From an uncultured bacterium (GTDB lineage: Bacteria > Cyanobacteriota > Vampirovibrionia > Gastranaerophilales > Gastranaerophilaceae), in contig CADBUZ010000013.1 of assembly GCA_902797985.1 (NCBI GenBank), forward strand, positions 1 to 61,699: a stretch of DNA of 61,699 nt, in the 5' to 3' direction. The position numbers and the translations under genes were made by a program. Shown here one piece after another: positions 54,523 through 58,481 of the stretch. Each line of letters begins with the position of its first letter. Position 1 is the first letter of the stretch. The notes beneath the pieces were generated by a model that saw only the letters and a program-made list of their open reading frames with translations, ran no database searches and was not told the DNA's origin.

Positions 54523-54583
54523 TGTTACAAAAGTTAAAAAACCTATTATTTTAATTGACAGTGTCAAAAAAAAAGTTTATAAT
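54523..54583 (+). promoter_or_regulatory. Perfect consensus promoter with upstream palindrome, before the 54656 small ORF
   Basis: TTGACA (54555-54560), exactly 17 bases, TATAAT (54578-54583): all twelve bases match the sigma-70 consensus. Upstream, TGTTACAAAAGTTAA (54523-54537), read on the minus strand as TTAACTTTTGTAACA, is the 6829 operator sequence; it lies 40 bases before the -10. The rest of the gene-free stretch 54286-54655 is AT-rich with nothing else I can name. Confidence 0.75.
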
Positions 54584-54655
54584 GAGTTTATTAGATTATT
54601 GAAGTTTAGTGTATTCTCATAAACGTGTGTGACTTTCCTATAAAAGGAGTAAAAT

Positions 54656-54805
54656 ATGAAAACTGCGTCAAAAGCTAAAGAAATTAAGTCAAGCTTCAAT
54701 GATGAATTTGACAACTATCTAAAGAAGCAATGCATCAAAACAACCTTTAATGGTTCTGAATTAGAAACTTTCTCATGGTACAAAAAAGTTCTTGGTTTAG
54801 TATAA
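54656..54805 (+). CDS. Small protein of 49 aa, strongly expressed by its promoter
   Basis: ATG with a near-perfect ribosome site AAAAGGAG 7 bases upstream and the strongest promoter of the window 75 bases upstream. The protein is a charged helix (MKTASKAKEIKSSFNDEFDN...) followed by a Thr/Phe-rich segment ending FSWYKKVLGLV. No signal peptide. I do not recognise it. Directly downstream is a structured RNA region ending in a terminator, so ORF and RNA are probably on one transcript of about 430 bases. Codon use looks like the neighbours. Confidence 0.7.
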   Translation: MKTASKAKEIKSSFNDEFDNYLKKQCIKTTFNGSELETFSWYKKVLGLV

Positions 54806-54834
54806 TCAAGTTCCATTAATTCAGTGTAAGATCT

Positions 54835-55020
54835 AAAATTAAGGCTACGGCAAGGGGTGGTGCCAATATTTGTAGTGCATTTATTGGGGCGCTTTCGTAG
54901 CATAGCCGAAATGTAAGTATTTCTCGCTAACCCATTTTGCATACTCTAATCCTGTTTTTAATACAGGCTCTGTTGGTGTTGAGGATATTCTCTTGAACCG
55001 GTTTTTCAACACCATCTTTT
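54835..55020 (+). ncRNA. Structured RNA region of unknown family
   Basis: The 235-base stretch between the 49-aa ORF and ilvD has GC-richer islands than its surroundings and several stems: GGCTACG (54843) with CGTAG/TAGCC (54896-54907), GAAAT/ATTTC (54908-54923), CCTGT/ACAGG (54951-54967), and an 8-bp terminator stem GGTGTTGA/TCAACACC (54975-55013). Length (about 180) and position suit a small RNA or a long structured 3' UTR. I tested it by eye against 6S, tmRNA, RNase P, SRP RNA and common riboswitch cores and saw no match. Confidence 0.5.
54975..55020 (+). terminator. Terminator of the 54656/structured-RNA transcript
   Basis: GGTGTTGA (54975-54982) and TCAACACC (55006-55013) form an 8-bp stem around a large internal segment, followed by ATCTTTT. 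Confidence 0.65.
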
Positions 55021-55040
55021 ACTGTTTATTATTTAATTCT

Positions 55041-57906: not shown

Positions 57907-57935
57907 TTGACAATATTTTATATTTATTATATTAT
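57907..57935 (+). promoter_or_regulatory. Promoter of the 57972 gene
   Basis: TTGACA (57907-57912), 17 bases, TATTAT (57930-57935). It starts 8 bases after the mnmA stop. A palindrome TTGTTAG-ATTAAC-CTAACAA (57940-57959) sits at the expected transcription start and could be an operator or a 5' hairpin. Confidence 0.6.
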
Positions 57936-57971: not shown

Positions 57972-58481
57972 GTGTTCGTTCAATCAATTAACAACTATCA
58001 AAACAGCGTAAATTTTAATAAACAATATACTAAACCTAGTATTAATTTCACCTCTTTAAAGCCAAACAAACCTGATACTTTTGAAAGGGTAAATTTTGGT
58101 AATAAAGCACCACTTTCACCTGAACAATTAAAACAGATATCTGACCTAAAAGTTTTAACTCATCACATTTACGAATATAAAAAAGGTATACGTCCTTTAT
58201 TTCTGGAAACTTTAAGTTCAAAATACAAAGATGCCGTAAAAGAAAAACTTGAAAAAAATAAAATAGACTATGTAATACACGATTTCAACAAAAAAACCAT
58301 AAATATATATTTTGGAAAGAAAAACTGTGTAGAAGTAGTTCGAACACTAAATCCAAAATTGAGTGACCACACCCCGCAAGAAGATTTTATACTTGGAGTA
58401 CTTTTAGGCTATGATAAAGTTGAACAATGCTCAAGATATCTAAAATTGTGCGACAAAGCTAAGAACAAACATCTTGAATAA
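57972..58481 (+). CDS. Lineage-specific protein with N-terminal INFTS and VNFGN motifs (169 aa)
   Basis: Unrecognised. GTG start with the strong ribosome site AGGAGG. The first 50 residues are polar and Asn-rich with three short phrases of one kind: SVNFNK (12-17), SINFTS (23-28) and VNFGNK (40-45). The rest is a compact alpha/beta-like domain (KDAVKEKLEKNKIDYVIHDFNKKTINIYFGKKNCVEVVRTL...), with three Cys near the C-terminus. There is no Sec signal. The same kind of N-terminus occurs on the 29702 and 60275 proteins. Convergent with coaE, overlapping its end by 23 bases. Confidence 0.78.
   Translation: MFVQSINNYQNSVNFNKQYTKPSINFTSLKPNKPDTFERVNFGNKAPLSPEQLKQISDLKVLTHHIYEYKKGIRPLFLETLSSKYKDAVKEKLEKNKIDYVIHDFNKKTINIYFGKKNCVEVVRTLNPKLSDHTPQEDFILGVLLGYDKVEQCSRYLKLCDKAKNKHLE

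Follow-up and report, generated by a model that had tools for sequence, protein, structure and literature searches.

A candidate genus-specific structured 3′ UTR RNA, antisense to an eroding thiE-like gene and downstream of a conserved small protein gene, in the Gastranaerophilales

The DNA analyzed here (61,699 nt, hereafter the window) comes from an uncultured bacterium of the Gastranaerophilaceae, whose genome of 1.86 Mb is assembled in 55 contigs and whose genus is taken to consist of rumen bacteria. On its plus strand, positions 54555-54583 carry a -35 box TTGACA (54555-54560), a 17-nt A-rich spacer and a -10 box TATAAT (54578-54583). A preliminary description had presented this element as a perfect 12-base promoter, the best of the window, and this was borne out by a consensus scan of the whole window, which returned TTGACA-17-TATAAT as the sole 12/12 match on either strand. 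The number expected by chance is 0.06 (mean of shuffles), with at least one match in 6 of 100 shuffled windows. The consensus promoter is kept in all eight species of the genus, two of which have at most one change in the -35 box. Alignment of these eight species also revealed a conserved motif in the 5′ UTR, ATTGAAGTTTAGTG (54598-54611, plus strand), which was not seen upstream of the gene described below in other genera. Pairing of this motif with the 29-nt segment or the 3′ element presented below was no better than in shuffled sequences; in some species, a CUUCAAU within the ORF could pair with it. Elsewhere in the window, a one-mismatch promoter match (TTGACA-17-TATTAT, 57907-57935) was noticed, with a 169-aa ORF (57972-58481) directly downstream.

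The promoter is followed by a Shine-Dalgarno sequence, AAAAGGAG (54642-54649, plus strand), conserved in the sister species, and by an ORF encoding a 49-aa protein (54656-54805, plus strand) with the family motif F.DEF..YL..Q..KTTFNG.E...FSWYKK.LGL. A homology search recovered this ORF in 52 of 58 relatives. In a sample of 292 genomes of the phylum, the family was present in all genomes of the same taxonomic family and was not detected in other classes. Within the genus, variation is seen at third codon positions, whose mean identity is 0.65, and 40 residues are invariant, M and W being left uncounted. By these comparisons the ORF proposed in the preliminary description is a real gene. Its product is without a family in Pfam, NCBIfam or PHROGs and has no convincing relative in the PDB. 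The predicted structure consists of two helices and, because its mean pLDDT is 63.5, was too weak for a fold search.

Two further sets of matches to this protein were recorded. In the genome of the window, the minus-strand ORF 1420-2655 of another contig (G000:C32) encodes a FliN-like protein (Pfam FliMN_C, 7.7e-20) that starts with IKTTFASELYDQFEWFKKTF, a sequence similar to IKTTFNGSELETFSWYKKVL in the 49-aa protein (E 0.013); weak matches in ORFs of similar length to the FliN-like one are also found in G004 and G007. The two sequences are possibly a binding motif shared by the FliN-like and 49-aa proteins. The 49-aa family is matched a second time in G155 (C1:24946-25086, E 2.2e-13), inside a 207-aa open frame that may encode a larger protein with a domain of this family.

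Downstream of the 49-aa gene, the eight species share a genus-specific region of 220 to 310 nt built on one recurring plan: a hairpin domain that varies (P0), an unpaired 29-nt segment, a hairpin (P1) and a terminator-like hairpin (P2). In the window, P0 occupies 54843-54910 (plus strand) and may be closed by GGCTA/TAGCC or CGGC/GCCG. The sister species have an imperfect hairpin of 100 to 126 nt at the same place, diverged in sequence and closed by CGGU/ACCG. Folding z-scores of P0 are -2.4 in the window and -1.7 to -6.6 in six sisters; its folding is marginal in G006 and not significant in G001. The 29-nt segment, TTCTCGCTAACCCATTTTGCATACTCTAA (54921-54949, plus strand), lies outside the conserved hairpins and is identical in seven of the eight species, including that of the window. 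It is followed by P1 (CCTGT/ACAGG, in RNA CCUGU/ACAGG, 54951-54967, plus strand), in which G007 carries two compensatory pairs, G-C to A-U and U-A to C-G. P2 (54974-55014, plus strand) pairs TGGTGTTGA with TCAACACCA (in RNA, UGGUGUUGA with UCAGCACCA), and all eight species keep its 9-bp outer stem, G001 with one gap. One-sided changes in P2 give wobble pairs that are valid only on the plus strand. The hairpin is followed by TCTTTTA (55015-55021, plus strand), a conserved U-tract and the predicted end of the transcript.

The preliminary description had placed a structured RNA ending in a terminator at 54830-55020. As to structure, the sequence downstream of the ORF (54806-55040) shows moderately more stable folding than shuffles do (z -2.15), whereas strong conservation is limited to a block at about 54916-55024. 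As to the terminator, an intrinsic one has a G+C-rich stem and a short loop ahead of its U-run; the P2 stem and the UCUUUU that follows are conserved across the genus alignment, but the loop is long (about 23 nt), the U-run is weak and the element is absent from the list of a terminator scan, which allows loops of 3 to 8 nt only. The whole transcript folds no better than shuffles (z -0.43). The 3′ part taken alone falls below shuffles on the plus strand in all eight species (z -1.7 to -3.8), whereas on the minus strand it mostly does not. Across the proposed structure, G-U pairs number 14 against a single A-C, therefore the RNA corresponds to the plus strand. Covariation in this alignment of eight species from one genus is limited: of 500 alignments with shuffled 3′ letters, 20 had at least as many doubly changed pairs as the real one, and 63 equaled or exceeded its covariation score. 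Overall, the structure of the 3′ RNA is well supported.

The preliminary description had overlooked that a thiE-like gene runs opposite to this 3′ region. Six sister species still have it as an open convergent frame, about 190 to 225 codons long, which overlaps the 3′ region fully in antisense; a Pfam search with a sister protein identified it as TMP-TENI, or thiamine monophosphate synthase (5e-32). Full-length thiE of about 350 aa is found in other genera; in the genus of the window it is down to its C-terminal domain, or dead. The window itself has a frameshifted relic on the minus strand (54916-55024), with PTEPV..TGLEYAKWVSE in one frame and VKDG in another, most of the gene being lost and no reading frame remaining open. 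This relic is the sole thiE match in the genome (25 residues, E 1.5e-7), and in G001 thiE is likewise only a relic. In three other genomes of the family (G011, G016 and G030), thiE matches lie in short ORFs of 134 to 191 aa, versus about 350 aa, a sign that thiamine-phosphate synthase may have eroded more than once in this family. Regarding the neighborhood, a thiE or thiE-like ORF adjoins a sigma-factor-like ORF (RNA polymerase) at loci L114 and L115 and at the sister loci of the genus; in the window, ilvD takes the place of this neighborhood.

An Rfam covariance search gave no family at the gathering score in this part of the window and nothing meaningful at E up to 10, and the seven sister loci gave no match at E up to 0.5. 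This agrees with the preliminary description, which had seen no resemblance to 6S RNA, tmRNA, RNase P, SRP RNA or riboswitches; the search for conserved structure in relatives that it proposed found the P1 and P2 stems, together with the 49-aa ORF, kept in the genus. Its interpretation is thus partly supported: the unreported structured element and the small ORF under one strong promoter both hold, being conserved and matched by no family of Rfam, Pfam or NCBIfam, and its abundant, dual-function RNA is a proposal. No tmRNA or tRNA was found at the locus, and 6S RNA was also discarded here: the subthreshold match, full-length at 39.7 bits for a gathering score of 46.4, is on another contig (G000:C34:7423-7607) and is probably a divergent 6S RNA. 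In the GTDB r220 contig collection, an exact degenerate pattern of the 29-nt segment was present only in the seven sister species. Covariance-model matches outside the genus were rejected as homologous RNAs, the four examined all lying in ordinary thiE genes; the RNA therefore seems to be an innovation of this genus, derived from sequence antisense to thiE. The 49-aa ORF and the RNA are not an ancient unit, because the RNA is found in one genus and the ORF is order-wide. No study of small RNAs in Gastranaerophilales bacteria was found in the literature.

We propose that the locus would produce one transcript of about 430 nt, starting at about 54590 from the consensus promoter, carrying the 49-aa gene and ending at about 55020, where P2 would terminate it. 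Its 3′ UTR would be a genus-specific structured RNA, made of the variable hairpin domain, the exposed and invariant 29-nt segment, P1 and P2, and would have arisen on the antisense strand of the convergent, eroding thiE-like gene. The 29-nt segment may be the site through which the 3′ UTR, free or cut from the mRNA, contacts other RNAs or a protein, and in the six species with thiE the RNA should also pair with the thiE mRNA in cis. Because the window has lost thiE but kept the RNA, the latter appears to be maintained for its own sake, and a tail kept after the death of thiE is very probably a functional, undescribed RNA. On balance we favor, with some confidence, a genus-restricted structured 3′ UTR, acting as a 3′ UTR-derived or dual-function regulatory RNA, that came from the antisense strand of the eroding thiE gene and is kept for its own sake.

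The main rival confines the element to acting in cis on the 49-aa mRNA; the region would then be a stabilizing 3′ structure and terminator replacing the ordinary one, with the 29-nt segment as a site for a protein or ribonuclease. By our own reading, an ordinary hairpin-plus-T terminator usually lies within about 100 nt of the 49-aa stop codon in other genera and is missing there in the genus of the window, and P2 with its U-run sits at the 3′ end as this explanation would have it. No trans target was found either: in the eight genomes, long complements of a 19-nt stretch of the 29-nt segment occur at a second site at chance level. However, neither a terminator nor a stabilizer needs 29 invariant nucleotides outside the hairpins, and we give this explanation perhaps a quarter of the weight.

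If the RNA served chiefly to regulate the thiE-like gene by antisense pairing in cis, through overlapping convergent 3′ ends, this would fit the full overlap in six species, and overlapping convergent 3′ UTRs are a known mechanism (PMC7821165). Yet perfect pairing in cis requires neither a frozen sequence nor conserved folds, and the block is retained in the window and in G001, both without thiE, which leaves this role improbable.

The antisense overlap, taken alone, would suggest a trivial explanation, namely that the conserved region is merely the 3′ end of a minus-strand thiE-like coding gene, a young pseudogene in the window, with RNA structure as a by-product. The TMP-TENI homology of the sister protein, the relic frames of the window and the recovery of ordinary thiE genes of other genera by the covariance model of the block all speak for it. 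Codon-position divergence was computed over the six sister copies in which the thiE-like frame is open. For codon positions 1, 2 and 3, the block has low and flat values (0.12/0.11/0.12), compared with 0.42/0.31/0.58 for the thiE body; in the C-tail adjoining the block (0.57/0.49/0.53) there is no coding constraint. Among residues invariant in the six copies, the same codon is used for 12 of 13 in the block vs 6 of 24 elsewhere (Fisher p 1e-4), and in windows of 11 codons third-position divergence has a minimum of 0.03 in the block, against a minimum of 0.297 and a median of 0.594 outside. Synonymous sites in the matching motif of full-length thiE from other genera vary freely. Judging from these comparisons, thiE coding does not account for the conservation of the block. 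With the flat divergence, the frozen synonymous codons, the plus-strand wobble bias, the unconstrained C-tail and the two dead copies that retain the block all against it, the coding explanation is strongly disfavored, and we consider it unlikely. A small peptide on the plus strand of the block was also rejected, the frame being open but without a start codon in seven of the eight species. Least probable of all is a DNA-level site for protein binding or recombination: a short invariant DNA segment alone cannot separate RNA from DNA function, but the adjacent hairpins vary their loops and keep their stems, G-U pairs fit one strand only, and the block lies just downstream of a strongly promoted gene.

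Comparison of the sequences shows the gene, the promoter, the nucleotide-level constraint, the plus-strand structure, the antisense position and the survival after loss of thiE. Expression as a single RNA, termination by P2 and regulation through the 29-nt segment are inferred, as is action of the RNA in trans. More tentatively, the antisense strand of a dying metabolic gene may first have become the regulatory tail of an adjacent small-protein mRNA and then an independent trans-acting RNA that outlived the gene; if true, the origin of a bacterial regulatory RNA would be caught across eight related species. With this locus, the Gastranaerophilales gain a candidate family of RNA and a small protein family that spans the order, both absent from the libraries searched. 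It offers an example of a structured RNA that would have arisen antisense to an eroding protein gene and been kept after its death, and makes the origin of 3′ UTR regulatory RNAs testable by comparison.

The RNA candidate is new, its kind is known and its origin is unusual. There is precedent for 3′ UTRs as sources of sRNAs and for antisense overlaps (PMC7821165), as well as for dual-function RNAs (PMC8672173). Type II 3′ UTR-derived sRNAs are stable fragments released from an mRNA and ending at its terminator (PMC7821165); as in the present candidate, a structured and conserved segment that includes a conserved unpaired stretch separates the stop codon from a terminator-like hairpin, but here the segment, a putative sRNA source, overlaps another gene in antisense. 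Type I sRNAs have their own promoter in the ORF or just after it; near the 3′ region studied here, the sole plus-strand promoter-like site of the consensus scan overlaps its end (55003-55032). The locus resembles the dual-function RNA VcdRP (PMC8672173) in that a strong promoter precedes a single transcript, within which a small ORF and a conserved RNA segment are distinct. Residue conservation, third-position variation and the conserved ribosome binding site, from which translation is predicted, provide the small ORF of such an RNA here; the ORF is order-wide, whereas the RNA segment, whose activity is a candidate one, belongs to one genus. As in overlapping convergent 3′ UTRs and the excludon (PMC7821165), six species have a convergent gene to which the tail of the mRNA is antisense, but here selection acts at the nucleotide level on sequence and structure, which persist after loss of the partner. 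That partner, ThiE, the thiamine-phosphate synthase of Pfam TMP-TENI, is the source of the opposite-strand sequence and in this genus is reduced to the C-terminal domain or dead.
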